Assembly: GCA_036583965.1 (NCBI GenBank)
Contig: JAZBQD010000019.1
Coordinates: forward strand, 5,278,530-5,342,529
DNA length: 64,000 nt
Origin: Prunella strophiata
Taxonomy: Eukaryota; Chordata; Aves; Passeriformes; Prunellidae
Reading direction: 5' to 3'
Shown: piece after piece, positions 18,830 through 64,000 of the stretch
Numbering within the stretch: the stretch's first letter is position 1
Layout: the number at the start of each line of letters is the position of its first letter
Position numbers and translations under genes: made by a program
The notes under the pieces: generated by a model
What the model was told of the DNA's origin: nothing
Seen by the model: only the letters and a program-made list of their open reading frames with translations
Databases searched by the model: none

Positions 18830-19625
18830 AGCGTCAGGAACGAGACAACCGGGAGACGCCGCTGCCAGGGCCCCTTTGTCGAGCATCCCCGGGTACCCCT
18901 CGCCTTTTACCTGGGGATGCAGTCGCCATGGTGACGGGCGGGTGTTCCCTGCCGGAGCCGAAACCCAGCGGTTCCCGCTGCTGAGCCGCATCTCCATCGC
19001 GCAGCGGAGCCCAGTGCGCCGCGGTGCCCGCCAGCAGCAGGTCCTGCGGGTCCGGCGGGGCTGACATGCTGCCTGCAGGGCGGCCGCTGCTCTCCGGCTC
19101 TCGGGATGCAGCGGGGGCCGGCGGAGGGGCTGGAGCTGCGGCCGCGCTGGGCTCTGCTGCGGGCACCGGGAGCCGCCGCTGCCGTGTCTCCAGCAGCGCT
19201 TGTTACGCAGGTGAAAATGGCTTGTTAGTTGGAGCCTTCCAGCCCTTGCGTCACCCTGTGGCTGGCATATCACAGGGCAGCAATCTGCCAGCCGGGCTGC
19301 TGCTCTCCCCCGTTTAACCGCTTCGGCAGGGTGGGCATCGCCTGGTGCGGGAAAGGGAAGATTTGAGCCCTGGCAGGCGGGCGCACGTCCCCTCCCGCAG
19401 CCCCCTCCTCCGCATCCCTGCGCTCCGGAGCATCCCGCAGGCTCCTCCCGCACCGCCGGGCTCCCAGAGGGGGCACGGAGCTCTCGGAAGCCCAGCCGAA
19501 AATCGTCCCCTTCCTCCCCCTCTCCGCCAGCCCCTCACCCAGCGAGAGGAGCCGCGCTCGGCCCCGGGTTTGTTTACCCGGCTGGCTCCTCTCTGTTTGC
19601 AGCCGCGCTGGAGACATGATCGCAG
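18830..19625. promoter_or_regulatory. RTN1: CpG island over the RTN1 promoter and first exon
   Basis: This is the only stretch of the window that is strongly GC-rich with abundant CpG. The flanks are AT-rich and CpG-depleted. It covers the putative first coding exon and about 550 bp upstream on the minus strand. A minus-strand CCAAT box (ATTGG on the plus strand at 19629-19633) lies at its upstream edge. I see no obvious TATA box, as is usual for CpG-island promoters. The transcription start is probably somewhere in 19100-19600, but the sequence alone does not fix it. The long open frames on both strands here come from high GC content. Confidence 0.8.
18911..19067 (-). CDS. RTN1: RTN1 first coding exon (long isoform, reticulon 1-A type), partial gene
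   Basis: Reticulon 1 is an ER-membrane-shaping protein enriched in neurons. The long isoform adds an acidic, variable N-terminal region before the C-terminal reticulon-homology domain. Reading the minus strand from the ATG at 19067-19065 gives 52 codons plus one base. The product begins MSAPPDPQDLLLAG, which resembles the MxAPPDxQD start I recall for vertebrate RTN1-A. The exon closes with TCCCCAG followed by a good donor, GTAAAA, at 18910-18905. The start has A at -3 (GCAGCATG). The in-frame sequence further upstream offers no ATG before 19166. The exon sits in a CpG island, as expected for a promoter-proximal exon. The reticulon domain itself lies outside the window. Orientation matches the RTN1(minus)/LRRC9(plus) head-to-head arrangement. 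The weak point is that this N-terminus is poorly conserved, so identity rests on a short motif plus synteny. Confidence 0.68.
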
Positions 19626-20387: not shown

Positions 20388-20590
20388 ATTTGGGATGAAA
20401 GGAACCTAAGAGACCAAAAACCATCTAGTTCCACCTTCTGCCAAGGGCAGGGACATCTTCCACTATCCCAGGTTGCTCCAAGGCCCCTCCAAGCTGGCCT
20501 GGAGCACTGCCAGGGATCCAGGGGCAGCCACAGCTTCTGTGGGCACCTTCTGTGCCAGGGCCTCAGCAGCCTCCCAGTCAAGAACATGCC
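20388..20590 (-). mobile_element. CR1 LINE fragment, antisense (in duplication copy 1)
   Basis: Plus-strand CTAGTTCCACCTTCTGCCAA, CTATCCCAGGTTGCTCCAAG and GGGGCAGCCACAGCTTCTGT mark an antisense CR1 3' region. The same insertion recurs at 22678-22880, so it predates the duplication. Confidence 0.9.
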
Positions 20591-21179
20591 CAGGCTATTT
20601 AGATTTCCTTTATTTCAAGACAGGACATGTTTGCTGCAGATCTGCAGCAATAATTTAAATCCTCATGGCTGTAATTCCAAATCCCATCCCATACCATCAG
20701 GGCTTACCTCATGAGCAAAGGAGATTGATTTTCTGAATTCATGGTTCCCCCTTTGACATATACAATGATCATGATTTCAGCAAGATTCTGATGGCATCAA
20801 CACTGATATTAATGAAATTACTAATATACAGTATGTTTTGGTTTTAAAAATATGTCTTCCCCTGGTTCTTAATGCACATCCTTGTTTGGGTTTCCCAGTT
20901 TTCTTTTGCATCCACTGCTCTCTGGGATGCCCTGTGAGTCTCTTTGTGTGAGTGTGCAATGGGCTGAAGCTCTCAGGAGAAGGGCTGGGAGAGCACTGAG
21001 CCCCTGGCAGCTCTGCTGTGTGAGCAGTGGGCCAGCACAAAGGCCTTGTGATAACACAGCATCATCAGCATGTGTGCACACAGGCAGGAGCAATGATTCA
21101 TTTCCACAGACCAAAGGGTTATCGTGGGCTCAGCCTGCTGCCATCACCACAGCCAGTGCTGCTACAGTAAAAGACTGAG

Positions 21180-21798
21180 AAGAGAGTGTGGAGTGTGTGC
21201 TCTGCTTGCTGAACAGGAATGGGGACAAGCAGGAGTCAGCAGAGTGCCCAGGTGGTCAAGAAGGCCAATGGCATCTTGGCCTGTGTAAAAAAATGTGGCA
21301 GCAGGACCAGGGAAGATGATTGTCCCTCTGTGCTGGGCACTGGGGAGGCTGCATCTCAAATCCTGGGATGAGTTTTGAGCCCCTCCTGACAAGAAAGACC
21401 TTGAAGGGAACTGGGGCAGAGCCTGGAGAACAAATGTGTTGAGGAGCAGCTGAGGGAGCTGGGAGGGGCTCAGCCTGGAGCAAAGGAGGCTCAGGGGGGA
21501 CCTTGTGGCTCTGCACAACTCCTGACAGGAGGGGACAGCCAGGGGGGATCAGGCTCTGCTCCCAGGGAACAAGGGACAGGACAAGAAGAAATGGCCACAA
21601 GTTGTGCCAGGAGAGGTTCAGGTTGGACATCAGGAATGACTTCAAGGAAAGGGTTCTCAAGCATTGGAAGAGGCTGCCCAGGGAGGTGGTGGAGATGTTC
21701 AAGAAATGTCTGGAGGTGGCACTCCATGGTTTAGTTGACACTGATTGGTCAAAGGTTGGGCTTGATGATCTTGGAGGTCTTTTCCAACTGTAATGAGT
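21180..21798 (+). mobile_element. CR1 LINE fragment, sense (in duplication copy 1)
   Basis: Long sense CR1 fragment with GCCAATGGCATCTTGGCCTG, AGGAGGCTCAGGGGGGACCT, TGCCCAGGGAGGTGGTGGAG and the 3' end TTGGAGGTCTTTTCCAACTG. It is followed by A-rich sequence and the (GTT)n tract. The reading frame is broken. Confidence 0.92.
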
Positions 21799-21862
21799 CT
21801 ACAATGGTATGTAAATAAACAAAACAAAAACAAACAAAGTTGGGAATGTTTGGGTGTTTTTT

Positions 21863-21863
<1 letters not shown>

Positions 21864-21960
<97 letters not shown>
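21864..21960. repeat. (GTT)n microsatellite, about 32 units, followed by poly-T
   Basis: Uninterrupted GTT repeats run to 21960 and are followed by GGTTTTTGGG and a long T run to about 22017. On the minus strand the tract reads as poly-glutamine or poly-asparagine in open frames, which I regard as spurious. Confidence 0.97.
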
Positions 21961-21968
21961 GGTTTTTG

Positions 21969-21999
<31 letters not shown>

Positions 22000-22677
22000 G
22001 GTTTTTTTTTTTTTTAATATATTTGTTGCTTACTGCCTCCCAAAAGTGATGTGTGTGCACCGGGGCAGATTTAGAAATGTCAGGGGATTTTTTGCTCTCA
22101 GCAGCATGAGAGACCACAAGGTGAAAGCACAGGGCAGGGTCTGTGCTTTCACAGAATCTGTGCCCCTTCTGAAGGTGAGCTAGGAACAAGTTGCCTTGCT
22201 GTCCTTTTACAGATGAGGAATGAGTCACTCAGGTAAAGGGTATGGGATCATTCCTGCATTGCACCAGAGCCTGCACGACAGGTCAAGGAAACAATTCCCT
22301 TCCTTTGCAGACAAGGTCCTCTCTCATCAGTGACAGGTCAACTACCAAGTGGAGCATACTGCTCTCCAGGTAGAAGATTCCATTCCCACCTGGCTCTCTG
22401 CCTGTTGCAGCAGAGGCTCTCCAGCTGTGATCTGCAGGTCACAGCATCCCTAGGCAGGCTTCAGACCCTCCCCAGCTACAGCAAGCTCATGCTTGGGCTT
22501 GAAAACTGAACGTTTCCACTTTTTCCAGACAAGGAGGGAGGAAATCCAGGGTAGGACCACAATGCAAGGTGAAAAAGCTCAAAAGTAGCCTTGAGGATTT
22601 CCATTTGTGTTCTCTTCCCAGGGAATTGCCATTCTTATCCTCACACCATCCTGCTGCTGCCTGAGAATCCTAGAATT

Positions 22678-22880
22678 ATTTGGGATGAAAGGAACCTAAG
22701 AGACCAAAAACCATCTAGTTCCACCTTCTGCCAAGGGCAGGGACATCTTCCACTATCCCAGGTTGCTCCAAGGCCCCTCCAAGCTGGCCTGGAGCACTGC
22801 CAGGGATCCAGGGGCAGCCACAGCTTCTGTGGGCACCTTCTGTGCCAGGGCCTCAGCAGCCTCCCAGTCAAGAACATGCC
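22678..22880 (-). mobile_element. CR1 LINE fragment, antisense (in duplication copy 2)
   Basis: Second copy of the 20388-20590 fragment, essentially identical, carried along by the tandem duplication. Confidence 0.9.
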
Positions 22881-23467
22881 CAGGCTATTTAGATTTCCTT
22901 TATTTCAAGACAGGACATGTTTGCTGCAGATCTGCAGCAATAATTTAAATCCTCATGGCTGTAATTCCAAATCCCATCCCATACCATCAGGGCTTACCTC
23001 ATGAGCAAAGGAGATTAATTTTCTGAATTCATGGTTCCCCCTTTGACATATACAATGATCATGATTTCAGCAAGATTCTGATGACATCAACACTGATATT
23101 AATGAAATTACTAATATACAGTATGTTTTGGTTTTAAAAATATGTCTTCCCCTGGTTCTTAATGCACATCCTTGTTTGGGTTTCCCAGTTTTCTTTTGCA
23201 TCCACTGCTCTCTGGGATGCCCTGTGAGTCTCTTTGTGTGAGTGTGCAATGGGCTGAAGCTCTCAGGAGAAGGGCTGGGAGAGCACTGAGCCCCTGGCAG
23301 CTCTGCTGTGTGAGCAGTGGGCCAGCACAAAGGCCTTGTGATAACACAGCATCATCAGCATGTGTGCACACAGGCAGGAGCAATGATTCATTTCCACAGA
23401 CCAAAGGGTTATCGTGGGCTCAGCCTGCTGCCATCACCACAGCCAGTGCTGCTACAGTAAAAGACTG

Positions 23468-24120
23468 AGAAGAGAGTGTGGAGTGTGTGCTCTGCTTGCT
23501 GAACAGGAATGGGGACAAGCAGGAGTCAGCAGAGTGCCCAGGTGGTCAAGAAGGCCAATGGCATCTTGGCCTGTGTAAAAAAATGTGGCAGCAGGACCAG
23601 GGAAGATGATTGTCCCTCTGTGCTGGGCACTGGGGAGGCTGCATCTCAAATCCTGGGATGAGTTTTGAGTCCCCTCCTGACAAGGAAAGCCCTTGAAGGG
23701 AACTGGGGCAGAGCCTGGAGAACAAATGTGTTGAGGAGCAGCTGAGGGAGATGAGGAGGGCTCAGCCTGGAGCAAAGGAGGCTCAGGGGGGACCTTGTGG
23801 CTCTGCACAGCTCCTGACAGGAGGGGACAGCCAGGGGGGATCAGGGCTCTGCTCCCAGGGAACAAGGGACAGGACAAGAAGAAATGGCCACAAGTTGTTG
23901 CCAGGGGTGGGGGTGGGGGGGGAGAGGTTCAGCGGCGTTGGATCTCAGGAACTGTGACCTTCAGGAAGGGTGTTCTCGGAAGGCATTGGTGATTAGAGTG
24001 CCCAGGGAGGTGGTGGAGATGTTCAAGAAATGTCTGGAGGTGGCACTCCATGGTTTAGTTGACATTGATTGGTCAAAGGTTGGGCTCAAAGATTTTGGAG
24101 GTCTTTTCCAACTGTAATGA
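23468..24120 (+). mobile_element. CR1 LINE fragment, sense (in duplication copy 2)
   Basis: Second copy of the 21180-21798 fragment. From about 23660 it diverges by many small indels and a G-rich insertion near 23900-23925. Confidence 0.9.
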
Positions 24121-24239
24121 GTCTACAATTGTATGTAAATAAACAAAGCAAAAAAAAAAAAAAAAAAAAAGTTGGGAATGTTTGGGGGTTTTTTTGTTTG
24201 TTTGGTTGGTGGTTTTTTTTGGGTTTTTTTGGTTTTTTT

Positions 24240-24240
<1 letters not shown>

Positions 24241-24310
<70 letters not shown>
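24241..24310. repeat. (GTT)n microsatellite, about 23 units
   Basis: Counterpart of the 21864-21960 tract at the end of duplication copy 2. It is preceded by a T/G-rich stretch absent from copy 1 (about 24185-24240) and followed by poly-T (to about 24342). Confidence 0.97.
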
Positions 24311-24345
24311 GGTTTTTGGGTTTTTTTTTTTTTTTTTTTTTTGCT

Positions 24346-27678: not shown

Positions 27679-28313
27679 CTGCAATGTTGGAACCCAGGAC
27701 ATCCCTCTGGCTGCCCTGGATGGCTCCAGCCCCTGGCAGGGGGCTCAGAGGCCTTGGCACAGAGCCCAAGACCCCTGTGCCTTTGATCCTGAGCCATGGA
27801 AAAGATTACCAACTTTATATGAAGAGTTGCAAGCCACAAAAATTAAGTAGAGTAATAATAAGTTTCTCACAGTGTGAAACAATAGAATTTTAGGGTTTTT
27901 TAGATAAGGGTTCAGGGGCCAAGATGGAGGAATTTGGGTGTGTTCTGTCCTTCTTTCTCCTTCTTCACAGCCTCCATCTTCTGGGTGATGGTGGCACTTT
28001 TGGATTGGTTCAGAGTAGAGTTGGACTGTGTAACACAGGTGATAGGTATTGGAAAATAACTGTAAATAATGTACAGGTAGTTTTTAGTATAAAAAGACAA
28101 CAGCACCCCAGAGGTGGGCAGTGTGCCTTGGACTGACCTGCTGAACAGACCTGGGCTGGTCAGGGGAAAAATCTGCTAGATAAGAAATAATAAACAACCT
28201 TGAAAACTGCACAAGAAGCTCCTGACTCCTTCTTCGGTTTCTCGGGTCAGAACACAGAGACTCTCTCACTGATCGGGGTCATCTCGAGGTACTGAGAGAC
28301 ACTGACACTGCAA
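27679..28313 (+). mobile_element. Solo LTR (family B, copy 1) with 6-bp target-site duplication
   Basis: The LTR itself is 27685-28307 (623 bp), beginning TGTTGGAACCC and ending GACA. It is flanked by a perfect CTGCAA repeat (27679-27684 and 28308-28313). A 6-bp duplication is typical of avian ERVK-like (alpha/betaretrovirus-related) insertions. A TATA box (TATAAAAAG at 28088) and AATAAA (28189-28194) are in the expected order. It is closely related to the inverted copy at 31329-31956. No internal viral genes are present. The open frames within it are not genes. Confidence 0.93.
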
Positions 28314-31322: not shown

Positions 31323-31962
31323 GAAGGATGCTGGAGGTCTTTTAGGAGCTCGAGATGGGTTTGATATATGTTTGAGAGTCTTTGTTTTCTAGCTTGAGAA
31401 CTGAAGAAGGAGTCAGGACTCTTCATTTGTAGTTTTCAAGGTTGTTTATTTTTCCTTATCTAACAAATTTTCTCCCTGACCAGCTGAGCTCTGTTCAGCA
31501 GGTCAGTCTGAGGCACACTGCCCATTTCTGGGTGGTGTTGTCTTTTTTTATACTAAAAACTACCTGTACATTATTTACAGTTATTTTCCAATACCTATCA
31601 CCTGTGTTACACAGTCCAACTCTACTCTGAACCAATCCAAAAGTGCCACCATCACCCAGAAGATGGAGGCTGTGAAGAAGGAGAAAGAAGGACAGAACAT
31701 GCCCAAATTCCTCCATCTTGACCCCCGAACCCTCATTCTAAAAAACCCCAAAATTCTACTTTTTCACCCTGTGATAAACTAATTATTACTCTACTTAATT
31801 TTTGTGGCTTGCAACTCTTCATATAAGGTTGGTAATTTTTTCCATGGCTCAAAATCAAAGGCACAGGGGTCTTGGGCTCTGTGCCAAGGCCTCTGAACCC
31901 CCTGCCAGGGGCTGGAGCCATCCAGGGCAGCCAGAGGGATGTCCTGGGTTCTAACAGAAGGA
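31323..31962 (-). mobile_element. Solo LTR (family B, copy 2, inverted) with 6-bp target-site duplication
   Basis: The LTR itself is 31329-31956 (628 bp) on the minus strand, beginning TGTTAGAACCC. It is flanked by a perfect GAAGGA repeat (31323-31328 and 31957-31962). The reverse complement carries the same TATA region and polyadenylation signal (TTTATT on the plus strand at 31445-31450) as the copy at 27685-28307. The different target duplications show that the two copies are independent insertions. Confidence 0.93.
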
Positions 31963-37175: not shown

Positions 37176-37271
37176 TGTTTTCCACATCATTTATGACTAT
37201 GATGAGCAGGACAAAGCCAGCACTGGCTCCCCTGATTGTTACTGGGAGGATCCATCCTTTGAACACTCTGC

Positions 37272-38899
37272 CCTCTCTGCCTCCTCTTTCCAGCCACCAT
37301 TTCCCACTCTTTTCCCCTCTCTGCCTCCTCTTTCCAGCCACCATTTCCCATTCTTTTCCCCTCTCTGCCTCCTCTTTCCAGCCACCATTTCCCACTCTTT
37401 TCCCCTCTCTGCCTCCTCTTTCCAGCCATCATTTCCCATCCTTTCCCCCTCTCTGCCTCCTCTTTCCAGCCATCATTTCCCACTCTTTTCCCCTCTCTGC
37501 CTCCTCTTTCCAGCCATCATTTCCCACCCTTTCCCCCTCTCTGCCTCCTCTTTCCAGCCATCATTTCCCACTCTTTTCTCCTCTCTGCCTCCTCTTTCCA
37601 GCCACCATTTCCCACTCTTTCCCCCTCTCTGCCTCCTCTTTCCAGCCACCATTTCCCACTCTTTCCCCCTCTCTGCCTCCTCTTTCCAGCCATCATTTCC
37701 CATCCTTTCCCCCTCTCTGCCTCCTCTTTCCAGCCACCATTTCCCACTCTTTCCCCCTCTCTGCCTCCTCTTTCCAGCCATCATTTCCCATCCTTTCCCC
37801 CTCTCTGCCTCCTCTTTCCAGCCACCATTTCCCACTCTTTTCTCCTCTCTGCCTCCTCTTTCCAGCCACCATTTCCCACTCTTTCCCCCTCTCTGCCTCC
37901 TCTTTCCAGCCACCATTTCCCACTCTTTCCCCCTCTCTGCCTCCTCTTTCCAGCCATCATTTCCCATCCTTTCCCCCTCTCTGCCTCCTCTTTCCAGCCA
38001 TCATTTCCCATCCTTTCCCCCTCTCTGCCTCCTCTTTCCAGCCACCATTTCCCACTCTTTCCCCCTCTCTGCCTCCTCTTTCCAGCCATCATTTCCCATC
38101 CTTTCCCCCTCTCTGCCTCCTCTTTCCAGCCACCATTTCCCACTCTTTCCCCCTCTCTGCCTCCTCTTTCCAGCCACCATTTCCCACTCTTTTCTCCTCT
38201 CTGCCTCCTCTTTCCAGCCATCATTTCCCATCCTTTCCCCCTCTCTGCCTCCTCTTTCCAGCCACCATTTCCCACTCTTTTCTCCTCTCTGCCTCCTCTT
38301 TCCAGCCATCATTTCCCATCCTTTCCCCCTCTCTGCCTCCTCTTTCCAGCCACCATTTCCCATTCTTTTCCCCTCTCTGCCTCCTCTTTCCAGCCACCAT
38401 TTCCCACTCTTTTCCCCTCTCTGCCTCCTCTTTCCAGCCACCATTTCCCACTCTTTTCCCCTCTCTGCCTCCTCTTTCCAGCCATCATTTCCCATCCTTT
38501 TCCCCTCTCTGCCTCCTCTTTCCAGCCACCATTTCCCACTCTTTTCTCCTCTCTGCCTCCTCTTTCCAGCCATCATTTCCCATCCTTTCCCCCTCTCTGC
38601 CTCCTCTTTCCAGCCATCATTTCCCATCCTTTCCCCCTCTCTGCCTCCTCTTTCCAGCCATCATTTCCCATCCTTTCCCCCTCTCTGCCTCCTCTTTCCA
38701 GCCATCATTTCCCATCCTTTCCCCCTCTCTGCCTCCTCTTTCCAGCCATCATTTCCCATCCTTTCCCCCTCTCTGCCTCCTCTTTCCAGCCACCATTTCC
38801 CACTCTTTTCCCCTCTCTGCCTCCTCTTTCCAGCCATCATTTCCCACTCTTTCCCCCTCTCTGCCTCCTCTTTCCAGCCACCATTTCCCACTCTTTTCC
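37272..38899. repeat. Minisatellite: 37 tandem units of exactly 44 bp
   Basis: Each unit contains CTCTCTGCCTCCTCTTTCC followed by AGCCAYCATTTCCCAYYCTTT and a C/T-rich end. Phase is kept across the array (1628 bp = 37 x 44), so I see no length variants. Two haplotypes dominate: CACC with ACTC, and CATC with ATCC. There is a third variation in the tail (TTTTCCCC, TTTCCCCC or TTTTCTCC). The plus strand is strongly pyrimidine-rich. Because 44 is not a multiple of 3 and the unit lacks stop triplets, the reading frames stay open through the array. The 635- and 661-codon open frames are therefore artefacts. Confidence 0.97.
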
Positions 38900-49954: not shown

Positions 49955-50060
49955 GCCAATCTGCAAATGTTGGGTAAAACATGGAGTAACCAATCTATGA
50001 AGAGGAAGAATCTGGAAACTGAAAATTTACTTCACGATAATGAAGATACAGTGAACATGT
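49955..50060 (+). repeat. Decayed duplicate of an LRRC9 exon segment
   Basis: Resembles 55485-55585, inside an LRRC9 coding block, with shared ATCTRGAAACTGAAAATT and surrounding matches; I estimate about 70% identity over about 95 bp. Its frame is interrupted by stops. It lies upstream of the first recognised LRRC9 block. A second local duplication (about 50140-50180 versus 50840-50880) is nearby. Confidence 0.5.
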
Positions 50061-50275
50061 GTCCAGAAATGTGAGGCAAGCTTTGAGTACAGTTAACTCT
50101 GAATTATTTACTCTGCTATTTACTGAGTCCAATGGAAGGAGAAGTGCAATTCCTTATCCTTCCTTATGAAAGTGGTCAGAATAACTTATATTATAAAAAG
50201 ATCTAGATGTTTAGACTCTCCCAACCACCAGCCACCATCATACCCAACTGCAGGGAGATCTTAAATAACATTTCA

Positions 50276-50525
50276 GTGTCTCAAGGACTTACAAGAGAGC
50301 TGGAGAGGGACTTTTGACAAAGGCTTGGAGTGACAGGACAAGAGGGAAAGGTTTTAAACTGCCAGAGGGCAGGGTTATATTGGATATTAGCAAGAAATTC
50401 TTTACTGTGAGTGTGGTGAGGCCCTGGCAGAGGCTGCCCAGAGAAGTTGTGGCTGCCCCATCTCTGGAAGTGTCCAAAGCCAGGTTGGGTAGAGCTTGGA
50501 ACAGCCTGATCTAGTGGAAGGTTTA
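50276..50525 (+). mobile_element. CR1 LINE 3' fragment, sense
   Basis: CTGGAGAGGGACTTTTGACA, AAATTCTTTACTGTGAGTGT, GGCTGCCCAGAGAAGTTGTG and GAGCTTGGAACAGCCTGATC are sense CR1 landmarks. The final 3' tail is missing. Confidence 0.92.
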
Positions 50526-51362: not shown

Positions 51363-51567
51363 TACAGATGTAATGGATCATCCTATGAGGATGTTGATCA
51401 AGAGGGACTAAAAAGAGAATTGGTTTTCTCAGATTATCCCAAGTTTGTACATAAAATACTCCTCAAACTTTTTTTTTTTTTTTTTTTTTAATATAACATT
51501 TTCCTTTGATAAAGTATTCAAAAGGTTTCAGACCTGCCTGTTGCTCAAGAAGCTGTGGATTCCACTG
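51363..51567 (+). pseudogene. LRRC9: LRRC9 N-terminal block, interrupted by poly-T
   Basis: After an acceptor AG at 51361-51362 the frame reads CNGSSYEDVDQEG then VFSDYPKFVHKIL. This parallels the CNGxSYExxxxEG...YPRIV segment near the LRRC9 N-terminus. A run of 21 Ts (51469-51489) follows, and this frame meets TAA at 51489-51491. The expected continuation (TCLLLKKLWI, compare PCLxLKELWI) resumes in a different frame at about 51495-51564. No good donor is visible after it. The upstream coding exon with the start codon was not identified. Confidence 0.65.
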
Positions 51568-52128
51568 CTGTTTAATGGGAAGTTAAATATGAGTTTCCTT
51601 TCCAGACAAATTTATACAAATTCCAGTACTTTACAACAATAATCATATTCTTTCACAAGCACTCCTTTCTTCTGCTCAAGGAAGAAGGCAGAGTTCAAAG
51701 CAATCAGGATCTGGCAATTTTTCACTTGAGTATTGAAAAATCCCATTTTATATATGGATCAAATATTACTTATTAGAAGGTTCTGTAATTTAGAACCTAT
51801 TCTTTAGAAGAGGTTCTTCTTAGAACCAATCTCTTTTGGGATTTTTTTCTCTCTCATTTGAAACTATATTAAAAAAAATAATTAAATTGAAGCCTTCTGC
51901 AGGAAACTGGTTAGATACAAGACACTTCAATGAAAATAATACTTTATTTTAAAACATATAATTATTTATCTTGAATTGTGGTAGCTGCTACTACTTTGTT
52001 GCCTTGATTGAAAAGCTTTCTCAGAATTCTGCACAGAGAATGGGATCCCAAATTATTTGGAACTACCTTACAACTTTCTGTGCAAGGTTATTAACATTTT
52101 GATTAAACAAGTGACATTTTGTTTTCAG

Positions 52129-52295
52129 TGCTGCAAAGTAATAGTCCTTCTGAGAAAATAGATGGTCTTCAAAAATGTGTAAATTTGCAAAAGATTTATT
52201 GTTATTGCAATGAAATTTCCAGGATTGAAAATCCAGAAATTTTAAAAAAGTTCACCCTACTTTGGTTGAAAAATAACCTGATGAAGAATTTGGAG
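52129..52295 (+). pseudogene. LRRC9: LRRC9 leucine-rich-repeat exon
   Basis: Acceptor TTGTTTTCAG ends at 52128 and donor GTGAGT starts at 52296. The 167-nt exon has two bases completing a codon, then a frame ending KNLE. The frame reads KIDGLQKCVNLQKIYCYCNE, ISRIENPEILKKFT and LLWLKNNLMKNLE. This is the LRR pattern of LRRC9 (EKIEGLQECRNLEKLY, NKISKIENLEKL, LWLNHNxIKNIE). The frame is intact, but NPEILKKF replaces the usual NLExLxKL, a leucine lost to proline. Confidence 0.8.
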
Positions 52296-53329
52296 GTGAG
52301 TCTTGTGTCCTTTTTAGGATTTCTTTTCTTCTAACTGGTCTAATGTATGGTATTTAAATAATATGGTAAATAAATGATCTAACAAGTAGGGAACTTATAG
52401 AACAAGGAAAAATTGCAGCTTTAATTTATAAGAATTAAGGCTGAAACATTATTTGGATTTCCTTAGCTGTCAAAGTTTTCTGCATATATGTAAGTCATTC
52501 ATTTCCAAATATTTTCTGAGATTCTTTCTAATAAAAAGGGTTTTTTACTTTTCTTATACCTGCAGATTTTTCTCTCAGTTTCAGTACTATGTGAAAGGAT
52601 TCCCATATGGGTTTTTGTTGTTGTTGTTTTCCTTGTTTTGTTTTGTTTTATTTTGTTGTTTTCGGGGGGGGGTTGTTTTATTTTGTTTTGTTTTGGAGTT
52701 TTTTGTAGGGTTTTGTAGTTTTTTGTGTATGTGGAAACTTTTTTAATTCTTGTATAACTTGGAGACATAAACTCCTTTTCAGAAGGAAGTTTTATCCTGT
52801 CTTTTTCTTACGGCTCTTATATATCAAATCACCCCCTATGAAAAATTATTTTCCCCTCATGCTAACCTTTGAATTGGAAGCTGGTCCAGAGCCAGCAAGA
52901 GCTCTGTGATTGAAAATTTGGCAGATAAAGGGAGAAGAAATGTGTGAATTCCTTTTTTCTAGCAGGAGCCCATGTGGCTTTCTGGATCCCCTGACTCTTC
53001 ACACCCTCCAGGGAGATGGAATTGCTGCAGCTTGGTCCAGTTTCCCTTGGGAGAGAATGTGGGAAAAAAGGCAGGGGAGACACTGATACCAAAACAAAAG
53101 CAGCCAGAGCAGGAGATGCTGATAAGGATGAATGAGATCAAATCACTGTGAACCTTCAAACCTGTTAAAAATAAACAAGGAGAGAGAAATTGGATCATGA
53201 TAAGTAAGGAAAGGGAAGGCTGAGAAATTAGAGCTGACAAAGTACAAGTGTAAAGGGAGCAGAGCATTTCCAGAAATGTACTCTTTACTAGCAAGTATCA
53301 TTATTGCTGCTATTAATGGAGGAATGGGA

Positions 53330-53870
53330 CTACTTTTGGGCTAAGAATGATTTATTTCTCAAATAAACATCAGTCTTAGAGGCTGTGAGATTCATGAAAG
53401 TAAGCACCTGGTTATAGCTTAAGAGTAAGTTACAAGTTTTTTTGTTATAAGACAATATATAACTTTCTAGTCTAATGGATAGATGCTACAAAGTTTATTT
53501 TGCTTTTCTAACTTATTGCTTTTACTTAATTTTGCTGCACTGTAGATACTTTTTCCTAATGGTCTTCTGTCACACATATACACATATGCTTCCTACTATA
53601 ACTTCCAAACTCTTAGCTTACTCTATACAACCACATTATAAACTATATATAACTTTACATTAGAAACCCTTCACCACCTTATCAATACAGTTTCTCACTT
53701 ACTTAAGGCATATTCTTACTTATAACTATAGAAACATAAGTTTATGATTTTTCTGCTTAGTGTCTGTGTATTGTGTTTTTACACCAACCTAAACTTCCTC
53801 TAAGGCTGCAGATCAAACCCTTCAGTGTCTGTGGAAGGGTTTTTTTTCCAATTCAAATTCCAATTCCAAT
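53330..53870 (-). mobile_element. Putative LTR, antisense, inside LRRC9
   Basis: Read on the minus strand it begins near a GGGTTTGATCTGCAGCC block (about 53800-53820) and ends after AATAAATCATTC (polyadenylation signal, plus-strand TTTATT 53351-53356). It is AT-rich throughout and related in layout and 5' block to the sense element at about 61343. The ends are approximate and no target duplication was identified. Confidence 0.5.
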
Positions 53871-54320
53871 TCTATTTTTCCAATTCCCATAAGCAAGGAC
53901 ACTAAACAGGAGTGGCACCTCACTGCAAGGAACTGCAGTGTCATGGTGGAGAGAAATGATTGACATCAGTGATTTAGTTCTCATGATTTCCCCCAGGCCA
54001 AGACATGGGCTGCAGCCAAAAGCTAATGAGCACTCCTGACACAAGGCATGATCTCTGAGGTTCCTCATGCCCAGCTGTGAAACTGTTTATTTTCATCTCA
54101 GTATCATTTACAGAGGCTTTCCAAGCTAATCCCCTCTTGGCAAAAAGCATTCTCTCTTTCCATGTCAGAAGAAAGCTACAGTTCACAACAGAGGCCAACA
54201 TTGTTTAGACTCCAGTCAAATTTGTTTTTACATTTGAATGATCTGCCTGTTAGCCTGCAGGCTCTTCAGCATTTGCAGTGCTATATTAGATTAAAACTGT
54301 ATTGTTTAAAACATTCACAG

Positions 54321-54383
54321 GGCTTACATACTCTGCAGAATTTGCAAGAGGTCAACCTCACTGGAAAAATGAAAAATAGGAAG
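54321..54383 (+). pseudogene. LRRC9: LRRC9 leucine-rich-repeat exon, short
   Basis: Acceptor ACATTCACAG ends at 54320 and donor GTAGTA starts at 54384. The 63 nt encode GLHTLQNLQEVNLTG plus KMKNRK. The exon starts in phase 0, exactly following the phase-0 end of the exon at 52295, and matches the expected next LRR (GLQTLKNLKDLNLAGN). The second consensus asparagine is replaced by lysine. Confidence 0.72.
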
Positions 54384-54895
54384 GTAGTACCAGTCTTGCA
54401 TTTTTAACATGATCATTTTCATTATTATCAAGGATTTATGTAAATGGTTTCATTTTACTCTCATTCTAACAAAAATTTCCTACCAGCTTGCACAATTTGA
54501 AGTCATATCCAAAATACACAACCCTGAGCATCCCAAAGTCTGTGTCAAAACTCCCCAGGGCTCATCTTTGTGTACCCCAGAGTCCTTCCCACAAATGAAG
54601 TCATGTCAAAAAGGACAGAAAATACACATCAGTGGGATTTGTTCATATACTTATTTTTAATTTTCAGTGCCTTTAGTATAAAGGGCACTTAATTTAAATG
54701 TAAATCAAGACTGTTCAGTTGTAAATGGAAATAAATAATAACTGCATTTCTAAGCAGATTTTAGAGAATCTAGTATTTTTTCTTGGTTTATCTTTATCTG
54801 TAACAAAAAAAAAAAATCTTCCAAATGCTATTCATACATTTTGAGTGGAAATAGAAAATAATTAATAATTATTACATTTGTGATGTCACTCTTCA

Positions 54896-55117
54896 CTACT
54901 CTTCAGCAAAATCAACAGCCAAGTTCCTAGAACACTTCATGTATTGCAGAGAATCCATTTCCAGTTTCAGTTCTGCTGGGTCCATAACTACTTGAATCAA
55001 ATACCTCAAACCTCTGGTAGGAGCTTTGACCAAAGGGCTCTTAAAAGGGACTGCATCAAACCAGGAGTCTTTGTACATATATCCATAAAATAGAACCAGA
55101 AAATCTTGATTACACAA
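54896..55117 (-). other. Unassigned minus-strand open frame in an LRRC9 intron
   Basis: A 73-codon frame whose second half (GLRYLIQVVMDPAELKLEMD and beyond) has ordinary protein-like composition, with acidic and amphipathic character rather than low complexity. I do not recognise it. There is no clear splice or promoter context. It could be part of an old retrocopy or chance. Confidence 0.25.
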
Positions 55118-55361
55118 ACAGGACCCCTAAAAGTGCTTTGATCAAGAGTCAACAGATTTTTTTTTGAGTGAGGGTGCAGGTTCCTCCCATATGTGGATTA
55201 GGTAATATCTAGGAAGCAGAAATGTTTTTCAGTCACCTCATCTCTTTGTCAGACAGAAAGTGCATATTTGAACATTTCAAATGATATTCACATTGAGAAG
55301 TATAGGCAGAGTGGATTAAGTTGTCTTAAGAATAAATTTATGGAATTTTTCTACTTTTTAG

Positions 55362-55661
55362 TGTGCACACAGAGAGCTTATCTTTTGGAGAGACATAAAC
55401 AAGATCACTTTCCTGCTGTGTTTTAATGTAAACTCGATTCTGGATCCTAATGGGGTTTTTTATCAGCTGGAATGTGAATTGAGCAAGATGTTGGATGTAA
55501 CATCAAATAATAAGTCTCTAAGGAATAATAATCTAGAAACTGAAAATTCAGTTCATGGTAAGGAAAACACTGAAAATGCATTCTTGAAAGGGCAGTCTTA
55601 CAAAAAAAAAAATCCACTAGAGGAAAGAATAACTTCCTGGAAGAGAAAACTGAAATAGTAC
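55362..55661 (+). pseudogene. LRRC9: LRRC9 linker/coiled region block with in-frame stop
   Basis: After AG at 55360-55361 the frame stays open for 98 codons to TAG at 55656-55658. It contains QLECELSKMLD (compare LERELAELK) and near the end PLEERITSWKRKL (compare LNERVTFWNKKL), so the block covers the linker after the LRRs. The stop falls where a glutamate codon is expected, just before the probable exon end. The apparent donor (TACGTTTAG) is poor. Part of the 5' end may be intronic. Confidence 0.62.
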
Positions 55662-56218
55662 GTTTAGTGAGTAGTTATATTGGAGAAATGCTTGGAAGAT
55701 TGGAAGAGTTTTCTGGGCCTTTAAACCACAGAGATCCAGCAAAGTGCTGTGAGTTTGTGGGGGGCTTTTTAAATGTTTTTTGAAGGGGAAGGGTTTCCTG
55801 TAATTCCAATGTGAACTTCATGACTTCTTTTTCTTGTCATTCTCAGTTCTGGCTTAGGACTTCCAAGTCAAATTCATCTAAAATCAATGGCCAGCATGAA
55901 ATCTACACACAGAGAATCCCTCACTAATGGGGCATGTGGAGAGTGTCAGTGATGCCACAGATCCAGGGCTGGACACCAGCAAAGCTTGGAAGCTGATGCA
56001 TCAAATTGAGGCTCAGGGTTGTGGATCAGTATGGGATCAGTATATCCACATTTTAGGATCACTATAACCAGTCACAGTGGATTCATCTATCACTTCCAGA
56101 CTCACAGAACATGAAAAAAAGCAATAAAAAAATCCAGACAACAAACAAACCTTCCTGTAATCATTATTTTCTCCAAATTTGTAGTTTACCAAAAAATCAA
56201 AATTATGTCAATTGTCCA

Positions 56219-56270
56219 TTGTTGTTGTTGTTGTTGTTGTTTGGTGGTGGTGTTGTTGTTGTTGTTGTTC
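56219..56270. repeat. (GTT)n microsatellite, interrupted, at an LRRC9 acceptor
   Basis: Two GTT blocks separated by TTGGTGGTGG directly precede the CAG acceptor of the 56274 block. Confidence 0.9.
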
Positions 56271-56273
56271 CAG

Positions 56274-56400
56274 GCAGAATTTTAAAATATTTCAAAGTGG
56301 AAATGAAGAAAAGTTTTATTTTGGTCGTACAATTCTTGTTGGCATAATTGGAAACAGTGGGAAACACTCACTTTGAAGAAGACTTATTAAATAATCCATG
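56274..56400 (+). pseudogene. LRRC9: LRRC9 exon with nonsense codon TAA
   Basis: Acceptor TTCCAG ends at 56273, preceded by a (GTT)n tract instead of a normal pyrimidine tract. The donor GTAAAC starts at 56401. In the aligned frame it reads ILKYFKVEMKKS then VVQFLLA, a TAA (56345-56347), and LETVGNTHFEEDLLNNPW. I recall the vertebrate protein as FLLTELETVGNIHFEEG here, so a glutamate codon has become TAA. Homology continues on both sides of the stop. Exon end phase (TG|G of Trp) also fits. Confidence 0.78.
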
Positions 56401-56837
56401 GTAAACTTTTACAGATACTTCCAACTAGAAGCTGTTTCTCATGATTCCAAGTTAATAACTTTTAACTGGACAAATTTATTACAAGGATCTGGAGTATTTT
56501 GAAGCATCAGAGCTCCACAGGCTCTATTTAGATACAGCTGGCAAGAAAGGAAACTCTCCCTCTCCTTTCCTTCTCATTGGTGGCAGCTGAAGCTTTGAGC
56601 CCACAGCAACTGATTTTTTGTTACCTTTTTCTTTTCTTTCTATACAGGGAGGTCTTGATTTTAAACAGGAAATATAAAAGAACAATCAAGCTATCCAACT
56701 CCTCTAACAACAGCAATTTGATTATTCTGAGTTGCTACAATCCTTTCTTGCAGGGAAGCACTGGAAGTCACTTACATAACCTTTGTATGAACAACCTTGA
56801 CGCTCGGTGGAGGGGAGATTCAAATTTAGACTGGCAG

Positions 56838-56887
56838 TGTTTCAAGGACTGTTTTCTGCTTGAATACTCCAAGCTTGTCCACCTCAG
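56838..56887 (+). pseudogene. LRRC9: Possible LRRC9 exon remnant
   Basis: Between a CAG acceptor (ends 56837) and a GTGTGC donor (starts 56888) one frame reads FKDCFLLEYSKLVHLR, compared with FKSCYELILSRF after the Trp of the previous exon. However, the phase does not join the end of the 56274-56400 exon without an indel. Weak, and could be chance. Confidence 0.3.
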
Positions 56888-58714
56888 GTGTGCCTTCTTC
56901 CCCTGTTCAGGGATGTTTGTTAGAGCTGCAGGTACTCCTGTGCTTACAGCTTGCATTTGAGGTTGTTTATAAATAGAATTCTGCTTGCTTTTAATGCCAC
57001 TCTCTCTTGAGCCAAGGATCTTTCTGTTCTGGCAAGGAGAAATTAATAAATCAGCCTTGTAGGGATGAAAGCCAAACCAAAGGGTTTTGGATGAGTAATC
57101 TTAGCACATAGCCATTTTTGAGAAAGAACATTTTTAACAGCTGCAGTAATTACTTTGGCTTTCACAGCTCATTCTTTTTAAGAAAACTTTCCATTAATTG
57201 AAAAGCTGGGGAACCTGATTCTTTTCTAGGGTGGTTCTCCTTTTTTAAGGAGTCTGATTATCACAAATTCTTTAAGGAATCTTATACAATCAGGTGGAAG
57301 TATGGGAATTTTTTCTCAAGTTTGACTGTATAAACTATTGTAAGTACTTGCAAACCAAGATTGCTTTAGAAGAATTTAAACAGATTGAAAATATGACACT
57401 GCAAAAATAGAAAAGGAACACTATGTGATTAGATATTGGTATTTGGTGCTTAACTTGGAATGCAGCCATTGAATAAAATAAATTTATTTGGCTCCACTCA
57501 AGAGAGCAAAGTTATAATGAAATGAAACAAGCTAGAGGTAATGCTTGTGAGTCTTTTTTCTGAGTGGGAAAAAGAAGAAAATCATGCAGAAAGAACTGAA
57601 AACCAATTTAGTGCAAAAGGAGAAAAAATACTATTAACTTCTTCTCTGTATGCATTTCTGCACATGGGTTGAGTTCATGTTGAATAATTCAATCATTATT
57701 CTCTACCAGAGAATTCAGAGTAAACAGTATCATGGGAATGAAAATAAAATGCATCTTTAGAGTGCCCAATCAAATTCTTAGGCTGAAATTTAAGAAGTTT
57801 CAAGTATTTCTGTAAAAAGAAGTTTTCAGTGTAGCAGAGTAAGTGCCTAAGTTCTTCAAGGCATTTAATGTAGCATTGGCTACATTAAACTTTACCTTAA
57901 CTTAACTTTATGATTATAAGAACAGAAACATTTTGCAAAGCTGCAAGTAACTGAAGATTATTAAGAAGTTTTACCCAGAAAGAGGTGACTTGAAGTCCCC
58001 TAGAGTCTCCATGGTTGGTGTTTCTATGGCTCTTGGACTTCAGAAATAAATCAAATCCCATGCAGATACTGCATTTCATTGTACCACAGGACAGCATGTG
58101 CATGTCAGCACAGTCACAAGATGGATTTTATCCATGCAAGTAAGTCACAACATTTTCTGGCTAAATCTCAACTTTGAACTTTTCATGATTGCACTCATTT
58201 ATTCAACTGCCTTACAAGAATCATTTTGAGATTGTGATGGAGCCAAGACTTTTGTCATAAGCCCTGCCCTGAGCAGCTCACAGAGCTGTGTCACCAGTGA
58301 TCTGAGGACACCCAGTTGCCCATTTGTACCTCTGAGACAGAACTGGTGAACCCATTTCTTCCTTTGCATATTTGATACTTGTGACTGTATTGTTACAATT
58401 TTAGTAAAGATGGTCCTTTTCATCTTTTTAAAGTGCATTTACCATAAGCATGCAAAAGTTTATTCTATATGTAAGCTGAGAGCTTGAGGGGAGGCAAAAA
58501 GACCTTTTCAATCTTGAAAGAAAAATCTCCTCTCCCTGGGGGACAGCAGGTTCTGAGCTCAGAACATTTCAGCTGCCAAGATCAAAACAAATTCCCTGGG
58601 CTTCAGAACATTCCCATTTGGAGATGCAGTATTTCACTTAATTATGTTAAGTGTTTCACTTAATTATGTTTTGGGACTTTTTTTAGAGGGTTTTCTTTTG
58701 TTTGATTGGGGATT

Positions 58715-58840
58715 TGGGGAGGTAATGCCCTGGCACAGGTTTCCCAGAGAAGTTTTGGCTGCCCCATCCCTGGCAGTGTTCCAGGCCAGGTTGGATGGGG
58801 CTTGGAGCAAGCTGGGATAGTGGAAAAGTGCCCTGAGGAA
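58715..58840 (+). mobile_element. CR1 LINE fragment, sense
   Basis: TGCCCTGGCACAGGTTTCCC, AGAGAAGTTTTGGCTGCCCC and GGCCAGGTTGGATGGGGCTT mark a sense CR1 fragment inside the LRRC9 region. Confidence 0.88.
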
Positions 58841-59711
58841 AATGATTTGGGTATTGTTTTGGGGACTTTTTTTGATAATGCTGAACATGGACACTCCTCC
58901 TACTGACTATAAAGAGGCAAGAGAAAAAAAAAAGTCTTCAAGTGATCTCATGGTGACAGTGAAAAACAGCATTATGGATTTTGTGTTAACCACAGCCTGT
59001 TGTACTTGGTAAATGCTGTGCTCTGTGTAAACTTTAAATGATCAGAATGTCTATTCTTGTCTTTTTCTCCTCATTATCATATTTTCCTACCTTGCCCTTT
59101 CTCTTTTTGTTGGAAATTGTGTCTTCACACTCACTTCTCACCAGTGCCCCCCACTAGTGTTTGGGGGACTGGGGCAGGACTAGATGGAAGCCCCCCACAT
59201 CTGTACCATCTGCAGCACCTGCATTTACTGCCTGTGGGACAGATTGGCTCAGTGGTTTCATGAGCTGCTTTTTAAACTGTTTTCATTTGTATTCACTTGA
59301 GTACAACATCATTTTGCTATTATTGTGTCCTTCCTACCAGCACTACACAGGTGTTAAATGCTAAATGAGTATACAGGAGAAAGATCCTGTTCCCCAGTTA
59401 ATGGTCTGATTTTCTTGCACCTGTCTCTCATTCTGTTGGAATAATGACACCACAAACTGTTTCTTTATTCACTGTTCTTTATTTTCCCTACATGCCATCC
59501 CTTATCATACATTTTTATTGTGTATTTTATATTATTTTATAGTTATGTTTTCTTGCTGCTTAAATTTCCTTAAATGTTTAAGATATGGTCTCAGTCAAAT
59601 AAAGATTCCTGGCCCTTGCTTCAATCTTTGCAGGAGTCCTGACAGGAAAAAAAAAAATAAAAAAAAAGAAAAAAGAAAAAAAAGGAAAAAAAAAATTTTT
59701 ACTCTCTGTAG

Positions 59712-59812
59712 AAGTCTAAGCTTATGTGAATGTCCCAAAACAGAATTTCTGAAACTATACACTAAGGTAGAAGGCAAAACCAACAGGGATCCTGAGAAGT
59801 CCTTCAAGCATG
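59712..59812 (+). pseudogene. LRRC9: LRRC9 central exon with damaged splice donor
   Basis: After the acceptor TCTGTAG (ends 59711) the frame reads SLSLCECPKTEFLKLYTK and later EKSFKHG. This matches the NSLSISECPRIEFLQ...LLKHGK region of LRRC9. By homology the exon should end after CATG, joining GG|AAA of the next block. The following bases are GGGAGT where GTGAGT would be expected. Reading on, the frame meets TAA at 59839-59841. Confidence 0.72.
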
Positions 59813-60539
59813 GGGAGTCAAAATTTGGAGAGATCTTGTAACATATGTGCTGTATGGAATAATTCCTGCTGCAGGAAGGACAGTTTGTAGATACTGTAGA
59901 TGGCCATGGGGTGGCACATGCAGCCTGGAAAGAAGCTCTGAATTCCTGCTGAATTCTTTCTCAGTGGCATTTTGGCATGTCAAAAAACTCCACAAAGGGC
60001 TTTGGCTACTGGGAGTAATTCCCAGACAGGAGTTTGAAGAGTGAGAAATACCTAGATGTGTCTGATCTTTTCATGACACCCATTAGTTGTATGACTCTGT
60101 CACTGCAGTGGCTTAGGATTGGTCAGATTTCAACCAAATTTGAAAAAAAAGTAAGGAGGTCTTAAAGGTAATGAAGTATTTATGACACAAATCCAAAGGA
60201 TACCAGGCCTCACAGGTTCCAGTCTTTATGAAACTACTTGTATTTTGGATTTCACAGGTTTTAAATATTAGCCAGCTACAAATGTCAGATTTCACAGTGC
60301 AATCACTTTTTTTTTTTCCCTGACAAAGTATATTTTTTTAATTAATAAACAATAAACCCAGAATTATGATATAAATAAAATACCTTTTTTTATTAATATG
60401 TACATCTATATTAGAATATTCATTCACCTAGACCAAGAGTCAGCCTGCCTGTTATTACATTGACATCACTGTTGTGTCATCCTATCTGCACTCCCAAGCT
60501 AGAATTAGAACCATTAACTCCTTTTTCTCCCTCACTAAG

Positions 60540-60686
60540 GGAAAGTTAAAATTGCAGAAGTTTTCCTTGGCCACAGCTCTCCAGCTTGTGCAATGAATCA
60601 AATTTATCAAGCCAACTACCCAGGAGCTGATTCAGTATTCAGGCCATGGAAATGCCAAGAAAGTGATGCATCTTCTTCTGGCAATG
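60540..60686 (+). pseudogene. LRRC9: LRRC9 central exon
   Basis: Acceptor CTCACTAAG ends at 60539 and a donor GTGTGT lies at 60687. The frame, entered after two bases, reads KVKIAEVFLGHS, then QIYQANYPGADSVFRPWK. This is a close parallel to KILIAKVFLGQS...KANYPMVNSVFRPRK. The frame is intact for 147 nt. Further downstream exons were not recognised up to 64000. Confidence 0.8.
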
Positions 60687-61342
60687 GTGTGTATTTGCAG
60701 GCACTCATTAGCATAAAGCTAAGGTTAAATTAACATTTGTAATCTAAACTCATCTTTGACTCTGGGCTGTGTCAGAGTTTTCATCCCTCAGAACACAATC
60801 TCTGGTCAGCTGAAGTGCATTTTTTCCAAGACAATAACAGGCAAGAAGATTCCTCCTTGAATCTTCTCTGAAGGTTTGTGCTTGTCTAGTTGACAGAGTG
60901 GATGTGAGAGGGGCTCTCTTTAGCCATGGGTCCCCACTAAAAGCAGCTCCACACCTTCCCTTCATCCACTGGGACTGGCTAAGTGTTACAAAGGGCAATA
61001 TTCAAACATCACAGAGGAAACCTTCACCCTTAAAAGCCACAGTGAGCAAATAACAATGAGAAATAGTTAAAAGTAATCAGATTAAATCATTGTCATGTTT
61101 ATCCTCTGACACCTTCTGCTTTACCCTATTTTTTGCAAGAAAACAGAGTTCACTTCAGTAATAATTTTAACCTGTTCTGATACACCCTCCAAGCTTTTCA
61201 GTGCTAACATTCTCTCTCTCTAAAGGAACTGGGATTCTTTCTGGGTTCTCAGAAGGGAGGAAATGAAAGCTAATTTGGAAGGTGATCACAGCAGAGTATG
61301 TGTTGGAATCCAAAATGCAGGGAACTCTCAGAACTTTGGGCC

Positions 61343-61830
61343 TGTAAAACAAAGCTTAGAATTAAACACAGGATTTGATCTGAGACCTTGGAAGAGGCTT
61401 CCAAACTGAGGTGCTAGAAGTGAGAATGTGGATTTATAGTTTAAAGCAGAGACACTTTAAGTGGAAGAAAGTTTAGAGTTTTAGAGTTTAAAGTATAGAA
61501 AAAATAAAAGTAGTTAGAGAGGTAAACAAGGAGTTTAGAGTGCAGTACTGTAGGCTTGTGTGTCATAACATGATGGGCTAAGAAAGCTTACATTGCAGCA
61601 TGGGTCCATAAGACAAAATATTTAAGGACTGAGTCAAAAACATAAATATCCTTGTTGGCAGTGTTTTATTGGTCAATAAATCCTTAAAAGGTCTCATAAC
61701 TAGAAGTCTTGTGACCTTCTGAGCCATGCAGTAAAGATGTGAGCTGAACTCACCCTTCCTGTCTGTGTAAAAGATAAGAAGAATAAATTGCATCATCTAA
61801 AAACTCAGTGGTCCCATCTCTAACTCATTC
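61343..61830 (+). mobile_element. Putative LTR, sense
   Basis: LTR-like unit beginning about TGTAAAACAAAGC, with GGATTTGATCTGAGACCTTG near its 5' end and AATAAA at 61782-61787. It resembles the antisense element at 53330-53870. Ends are uncertain and no target duplication was found. Confidence 0.5.
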
Positions 61831-64000
61831 AAAATTCCTTCTCAAATCCTCACAAGTATGGAGTAGTTGTGGACAGTGCAGGAAGAGAAGCACTGCAGGA
61901 GAGCTGTCCATGCTCTCAGGATCTAAACCAGACTTTGACAGGCTGAGATCTTCATGCTGGAATCTGACAGCTGTTTATTCTGCACAGGGTATCAGCCAGC
62001 CAAGTTAAACTCCTTTATCAGCCTGTGTGAGCCTGTGTGGCAAAGAACTCCAATGGTGGAAAGGAATTAAACTGATGGATCTTCATGGAAAAAGATACCT
62101 TTGACTTAACATCCTGAAATTATCAGACTTAGTTAAAAACATCAATATATTTACCCTGTTTTGCTCATTTTGGAAATGTGGGCTTCCTGGGATAGGGGAA
62201 TTGGGACTGCAGCCACCTGCATTGTGAGAGGTTTGTGTTTGACCAAGAGCTGCTCCTGCCAGAACACTGCTGGATTTTAGTGTCTTACACTGGCATTTGG
62301 TACACTTTGATTATGAGAAATTAAACCCAGTTTCTAGAAGATCAGTGTTATAGAAAGATGATTTCATGACTTGATTTCTATTCATTTCCTAATCAAACTC
62401 CTCTCATCTCACATTTACATTTATAATTAACATTTATAATTTTTTAATTACATTTATAATTTAATTTAAAATCAGAAATTTTGCAGATTTCAAATGCCTT
62501 TAATTTTATGTAGCTCAAAAAACAGCATCTGTTTTCTATGTTCAATATAATTGTGGGAGAAGAAAAGAAAAACACAGAAAGATTCATTCTGTCTCATGAT
62601 TTGTAATGTGATGATGGTGTTTTGAACATGGAACTGACAGTAAAGGTCAGGCCTCAGACTGCTGAAATGAAAAAAGCCCACAATATTTACAGTGTTTAAG
62701 GCTGTATTTTATTTAGTCAGGTACAAGTGAGATATTTTTGTCAAATTTTCAAATTTGAAAATTTGCATTCATTTGACAGTGAATGCATTATGTAACTGTT
62801 ACTTTGTTATTCAGCTTGGCCCATGACCTAAACCAAACAAAAAAGTTAAAAATTAACATTTTGCATTTATTTAACATAACTAGAACTGGTATCTCTCTGC
62901 ATATCAGTCATTATGCAATGGAAATTATAATTATTGGGCTGAATCCTAATTGCATTTCCTATTGTGTAAAGGACATAAAATTTCAAAGAAAAAATAGTTT
63001 AAAAGAAATGTATCTGAAAATAGGACACAACCTAAACTATCAGCCTGTCCTTTGAATTTTATAAAATACATGACTTGATGTCATTTTGTCTGTTCAGGGA
63101 AATATTTTCTTTTTTGTGAAATCTGACATCACCAGAATGCAGCCTGAGGAGAAAAAAAAAAAAAACACAACAAAAAAACCAGAAATTTTAGAGGCAATGT
63201 TCAGGAAGAGGAGAAAGAGGTGAATAACAATTCTTTTCCTATTTTACCAAGGTGCCAGCTTTCCAGTGATTCTGTGTTTGCAGTGAGATAATAGCAATTC
63301 TCCTCTCTCTTTTCCTAAGGATCTGTTGCCTGTCTCTGCTTGGCTCCACTCTTCCCTTGCTGCTCTTTCACTAATGGAAGAGTTGCCAGTTCCTTCCTGT
63401 CAGCAGCATCTCTCCCCTTCTCCCCATCTTGCCCTGGTCACTTTTATTTCAAGGAGAAGTTAGAGAATAAATAGTCTTCAAATGACTGAAGAAGATTCAC
63501 CATAGCCTTTGTTGACTTTTCACCATTTATTCCAGTGTGTATTCACAAGTTTATAGTCTTTTTATGGTTTAGCAGTAGGACAATATTTTATTAGTACTCC
63601 ACCAGTTGAACTTTACTCATTTTAAAGGCAGCCATGGAGCATTAGAGAATTTGGCTGCATGTCTGGCAAAAATGTAATTTCTGATCTCCTTTTGGCCTGG
63701 GTTCTGAGTTTGAGTAGGAACAGCCTGAGCACACTGCAGAACATCTCTAGACTTAAAAACACTTCTAAAGCTTATCATCAACTAGTCATGAATTCACTTC
63801 CTTAAATAATATGCATGATCTGGTGAGAAATTAAGCTCCAATTCCTTCATAAGGAACATTTAGTAGCAGAAATATTCTTGCTTTGTGAGGTGAGCCCACA
63901 GGACAGGACTGGGCCAGGATGCACACTGGGAAACAGAATTTGGATCATGAATACTGGGACATCAGCAGTAGCCAAAAGCTTTGGTGCCTGTTTATGTGAC
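61831..64000. other. LRRC9 region / intergenic, no exon recognised
   Basis: AT-rich unique sequence with A-runs (about 63152-63166). I looked for the C-terminal LRR exons of LRRC9 and did not find any. They may lie beyond the window. Confidence 0.5.

Follow-up and report, generated by a model that had tools for sequence, protein, structure and literature searches.

LRRC9 is an ancient and widespread eukaryotic protein without established function. The published description argues that it consists of leucine-rich repeat (LRR) arms around a pseudo-ADP-ribosyltransferase, reports this ADP-ribosyltransferase-like (ART-like) domain in all vertebrate classes, and finds the highest mRNA levels in brain, pituitary and testis, with the protein observed in sperm (PMC7955679). 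Among the conserved genes that have been lost in birds are WDR93 and CFAP46 (PMC10445033). Here we describe a stretch of 64,000 nucleotides from Prunella strophiata (assembly GCA_036583965.1, contig JAZBQD010000019.1, positions 5,278,530 to 5,342,529; referred to below as the window), the plus strand of which carries the remains of LRRC9. We conclude with high confidence that LRRC9 at its orthologous locus is a unitary pseudogene in this bird, i.e., a gene that has been inactivated and is decaying. The locus agrees with the LRRC9 of human and other vertebrates in sequence, in the order of the parts and in the neighbouring genes, and differs from them (PMC7955679) in having stop codons, a lost splice donor, missing exons and degraded ART-like motifs. 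It is like WDR93 in being a lineage-specific bird loss at a conserved locus that came about via stops and exon loss, and unlike CFAP46, a different gene, which was lost by segmental deletion (PMC10445033). This bird has very probably lost LRRC9, and as a gene loss the case is credible and of a type already known. Literature searches found no paper on the loss of avian LRRC9, and the term "lrrc" is absent from the main text of PMC10445033.

Remnants of LRRC9 on the plus strand

A protein-database search gave 697 LRRC9 matches at E<=1e-20, the best 120 of which were all from mammals by name. Eight of these best 120 were used as tblastn queries against 66.3 kb of target sequence. Residue numbers are those of the database protein P0001, which aligns without gaps to our provisional human LRRC9 sequence up to 1426, and coordinates beyond 64000 continue the window numbering along the contig. 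This provisional human sequence, also used for spliced alignment, agrees in length and named residues with the published description (PMC7955679). Among the best 60 of the 75 PDB matches of P0001, no chain was named LRRC9.

At E<=1 the eight queries produced 23 clusters. The 14 with E<=0.001 are without exception collinear plus-strand blocks; they span residues 19-1491, with 11 inside the window (51369-62657) and three downstream, to 78255, while the reversed-sequence control gave no tblastn matches. Two of the nine weaker clusters fit the gene order (66523, E 0.26; 70191, E 0.11); the other seven, each from a single query at E 0.2-0.99, were counted as noise, although the one at 77213 is compatible with the order too. 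A frameshift-tolerant spliced alignment with the provisional human protein scored 884 at the locus; eight controls (reversed DNA, the opposite strand, two shuffles, three other regions and the reversed protein) scored 132-187, and a second setting gave 829 versus 95-141. The preliminary description of this stretch had reported at least six ordered LRRC9 blocks between 51363 and 60686; the order held, and the end point has to be moved, as the spliced alignment takes the remnants to 63822 within the window (about 12 blocks, 11 from tblastn and one from spliced alignment only) and the tblastn blocks continue to 78255 on the contig. The remnants in the window are the following:

51369..51449, plus strand, residues 19-48 (E 1.6e-5, 8/8 queries; acceptor tacag at 51367)
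51511..51567, plus strand, weak continuation, residues 67-85 (3/8 queries), after a poly-T run and out of frame with the preceding block (frameshift 51474)
52146..52295, plus strand, LRR exon, residues 87-136 (E 2e-12), open, donor GGAG/GTGAGT, without a second genome copy
54321..54377, plus strand, residues 137-155 (tblastn), first half of exon 137-181; the second half can no longer be recognised and leads into a stop
55467..55652, plus strand, exon of residues 295-358 (E 7e-4, 7/8 queries), for the end of which the alignment offers no GT donor in phase
56276..56398, plus strand, residues 360-403 (E 6e-5, 8/8 queries)
57684..57812, plus strand, ART-like domain exon, residues 411-454 (E 1e-6, 8/8 queries)
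59686..59811, plus strand, ART-like domain exon, residues 506-546 (E 1e-6, 8/8 queries)
60540..60662, plus strand, exon of residues 547-587, open (E 1e-4, 8/8 queries; 60542-60652 aligned, 3' limit by eye)
62187..62267, plus strand, residues 591-617 (E 0.001, 8/8 queries)
62514..62657, plus strand, residues 627-675 (E 8e-8, 8/8 queries; acceptor TGTAG intact, frameshift at about 62670)
63710..63822, plus strand, residues 701-737 (spliced alignment only, no tblastn match at E<=1; frameshift 63764, donor TCTG/GTGAGA)

The end of exon 137-181 is taken from one mammal isoform row. In one of the eight queries the block at 59686 reaches residue 486 across an A-rich stretch, and we kept its limit at 506. 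Downstream, a C-terminal exon at 78061 was found with the database proteins and is absent from the C-terminus of the provisional human sequence. Targeted alignments of residues 1181-1453 scored little above the reversed controls (73 versus 60 over 70.2-92.2 kb, 89 versus 79 over 90-111.3 kb). The open stretch 56760-56886 was considered as residues 411-454 and rejected, having no tblastn match while these residues align at 57684. Weak spliced-alignment pieces in the window (54559, 54685, 55228, 56933, 58338 and 61387) and downstream (66955-68597, 70525 and 71285) were judged noise and left uncounted.

Synteny and the search for a second copy

In the flanks, examined over 160 kb upstream and 117.6 kb downstream of the window, the gene order and orientation is RTN1(-) LRRC9(+) PCNX4(+) DHRS7(-) PPM1A(+), the same as in human. 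The neighbours were placed as follows, with numbering continued beyond the window:

upstream of the window, minus strand, RTN1 exons
18891..19067, minus strand, probable first coding exon of RTN1 (weak alone, E 0.16)
111366, plus strand, start of PCNX4 (alignment)
125.9-145.3 kb, minus strand, DHRS7
from 178.5 kb, plus strand, PPM1A

It is well supported that this is the orthologous LRRC9 locus. Introns are kept between the exon blocks, e.g., the one that runs GTGAGT...CACAG between residues 136 and 137, and because introns are retained the locus is not a retrocopy. The genome-wide coverage for a second copy consists of two conserved exon probes run against the 1.053-Gb assembly. The probe from exon 741-800 matched only this locus, and a two-exon LRR probe gave two matches here, followed by four places at 29-40% identity. 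That the pseudogene is unitary, as the preliminary description had it, is therefore supported as far as these two probes reach.

Inactivating lesions

Seven in-frame stops were found in the LRRC9 blocks, four in the window and three downstream. Conservation of the affected residue was counted over the listed mammal rows that have the position (at most 120). The stops and the lost splice donor are:

56345..56347, plus strand, stop TAA at E386 (E in 119/119 mammal rows)
57813..57815, plus strand, stop TAA at residue 455 (D or E in 111/112), ambiguous
62193..62195, plus strand, stop TAG at Q593 (Q in 103/114), ambiguous
62604..62606, plus strand, stop TAA at K658 (K or Q in 106/106)
66565, plus strand, downstream stop at E827 (E in 118/120)
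69794, plus strand, downstream stop at Q1125 (Q in 115/116)
78097, plus strand, downstream stop at R1440 (R in 102/113)
59813..59818, plus strand, lost splice donor CATG/GGGAGT (GG for GT) after H546, at the mammal isoform boundary

Five of the stops (56345, 62604, 66565, 69794 and 78097) are better placed, and matches flank them on both sides. The boundary 546/547, at which the donor is lost, is inferred from 17 of 120 mammal rows, isoforms without residues 547-587; the acceptor at 60539 has the right phase. The counted blocks also contain frameshifts at 51474, 62670, 63764, 66522, 66607 and 70284. With the eight queries over the 66.3 kb, no accepted tblastn match was obtained for residues ~156-294, 455-505, 844-1105 and 1190-1427, which leaves exons 182-242, 243-294 and 844-888 (limits from mammal isoforms) unmatched. 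No convincing LRRC9 start exon was found at the locus, and a continuous reading frame across the LRR, ART-like and second LRR regions is lacking.

Decay reaches the ART-like domain too. The family motifs are PR[IL], [DE]xxxFRHG and D(5)PEY(2)EFEY (PMC7955679). In the block at 59686, PKT stands for PR[IL] and PEKSFKHG for [DE]xxxFRHG; in the block at 62187 the third motif reads D(5)PEH, and EFEY is lost. Of the changed positions, R523, Y617, E620 and E622 are invariant in 119/119 mammal rows and R545 is R in 118/119 (K in one), while P522, P615 and E616 are retained in the remnant. Judged from the sequence, the motif set of a functional LRRC9 is incomplete and the ART-like motifs are degraded.

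As a measure of assembly quality, the same spliced alignment was applied to PCNX4, DHRS7, three pieces of RTN1 and most of PPM1A, with provisional human queries. Across 2,430 codons these four neighbouring genes showed no stop, and 19/19 of the introns placed have GT-AG. Five stops in ~670 LRRC9 codons (a hand tally of block lengths) versus none in 2,430 gives a one-sided Fisher p of 5e-4 (2e-5 with seven stops), a test that is indicative and not exact, given that the human queries were provisional and the LRRC9 blocks chosen as recognisable.

We propose that LRRC9 ceased to be under purifying selection in an ancestor of this bird, and that stops, splice-site loss, indels and exon loss then accumulated across the gene, in the ART-like domain and in the LRR arms on either side. 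A functional LRRC9 product is presumably not made, since any transcript would run into early stops and faulty junctions, and the lesions are likely to be fixed in the species.

Weighing the alternatives

Several observations weigh against a lost gene and have to be set beside the other readings of the locus. LRRC9 might be intact and fast-evolving in birds, its apparent lesions being partly assembly errors and partly a product of aligning mammalian queries to a bird gene that has diverged. The evidence base is indeed one genome assembly from one individual, with mammalian queries, and the 2,430 neighbour codons contain three single-base frameshifts (two in PCNX4, one in RTN1), so that assembly base errors are likely. 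Several LRRC9 exons are still open, e.g., residues 87-136 and 738-800, and two of the seven stops fall at possible exon edges. The one at 57813 can be read as an exon edge, with the spliced-alignment donor at 57812 and another GT 9 nt upstream, and so can the one at 62193, whose AG serves as the spliced-alignment acceptor of an exon starting at 62196. Mammal isoforms, on the other hand, put 57813 inside exon 405-463 (eight isoform rows) and 62193 inside the exon that follows residue 587 (deduced from isoforms with a gap at 547-587), and because of this conflict we regard both as ambiguous. The better-placed stops have their own weaknesses, since the block around 66565 matches weakly (tblastn E 0.26, 3/8 queries) and the stop at 78097 is close to the C-terminus. 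Because apparently intact neighbours also carry single-base frameshifts, indels alone prove little here, and the argument for a pseudogene rests on the substitution stops, the splice site and the lost exons. Of the multiple independent lesions claimed in the preliminary description, we thus retain the five stops, the GG donor and the lost exons, with two stops ambiguous and the indels of little weight. Against an intact gene stand these five stops with matches on both sides, compared with none in the comparison genes, as well as the GG donor, the unmatched exons and the degraded ART-like motifs; we consider an intact gene very unlikely.

A shortened product could also survive, either from the LRR exons at the N-terminus (residues 19-155) or as an exon-skipped isoform, in which case LRRC9 would be reduced and not lost. 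The LRR exon of residues 87-136 is open with a consensus donor, and one human isoform lacks the exon that holds the stop at 56345, which also counts against that stop as a lesion. However, exon 137-181 has lost its second half and we accept no match for residues 182-294; the frame of the first block is not kept beyond the poly-T run; no convincing start exon was found at the locus; and there are stops in later exons as well (62604, 66565 and 69794). A surviving short product therefore seems very improbable to us. Even less probable is a duplicate or processed pseudogene with an intact LRRC9 elsewhere in the genome. Second-copy coverage is partial, comprising two exon probes genome-wide, but the introns are retained, the flanking genes are the expected ones, the 741-800 probe is unique to the locus in 1.05 Gb and the LRR probe finds only sequences of 29-40% identity elsewhere. 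A pseudogene at the LRRC9 locus, as first described, is thus what synteny, introns, five well-placed and two ambiguous stops, the lost donor and the lost exons indicate.

Age and breadth of the loss

Five to seven stops in 624 sense codons (counted from coordinates) correspond to ~0.055-0.10 neutral substitutions per site since the loss. Avian substitution rates are 1.9-3.0e-9, which would make the loss, very roughly, 18-54 million years old by stop density. This age may be an underestimate, because exons that can still be recognised tend to be those that have decayed least.

We also probed a protein database that includes vertebrate NCBI and UniRef proteins with exons of the locus itself. The LRR exon (targets of 550-1750 aa) gave 12 candidates, none significant, and exon 741-800 (targets of 495-1575 aa) gave no candidate sharing three words. 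That these two probes found no close relative would be expected if related birds lack the gene or its annotation, and strong decay of the probe itself could be an alternative cause. That LRRC9 was lost across a large bird group, tens of millions of years old, and not in one species, is a tentative proposal to which we give a little less than an even chance. If it is true, birds would be a natural knockout for an otherwise unexplained and widespread eukaryotic protein, and a vertebrate group without LRRC9 would offer a comparative handle on traits or partner genes that change upon its loss. The state of the locus is also a reason for caution should an automatic pipeline annotate LRRC9 as a working gene in this assembly.

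Other features of the window and its flanks

Ahead of the first recognised LRRC9 exon, positions 49963-50059 are ~72% identical over 97 bases to 55483-55578, part of exon 295-358, of which they may represent an ancient, incomplete copy. Scattered repeats with 74-86% identity (50248-50522, 58727-58825 and others), one of them in an LRRC9 intron, resemble the 3' end of an avian CR1 LINE. Downstream, PCNX4 has single-base insertions at 120816 and 121165, with 9/9 introns GT-AG and no stops otherwise, so that it contains either assembly errors or is a second damaged gene. The probable first exon of RTN1 adjoins a 2.3-kb tandem duplication (19673-21992 / 21959-24342, 94% identical), at which there is a TGT triplet array (21855-21961). 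At 37271-38896 lies a minisatellite in which a pyrimidine-rich unit of 44 bases occurs 37 times (94% matches); it keeps long frames open by chance. Finally, an inverted pair of 0.58-kb copies (27685-28265 / 31374-31956, 92% identical) is perhaps a recent repeat element.

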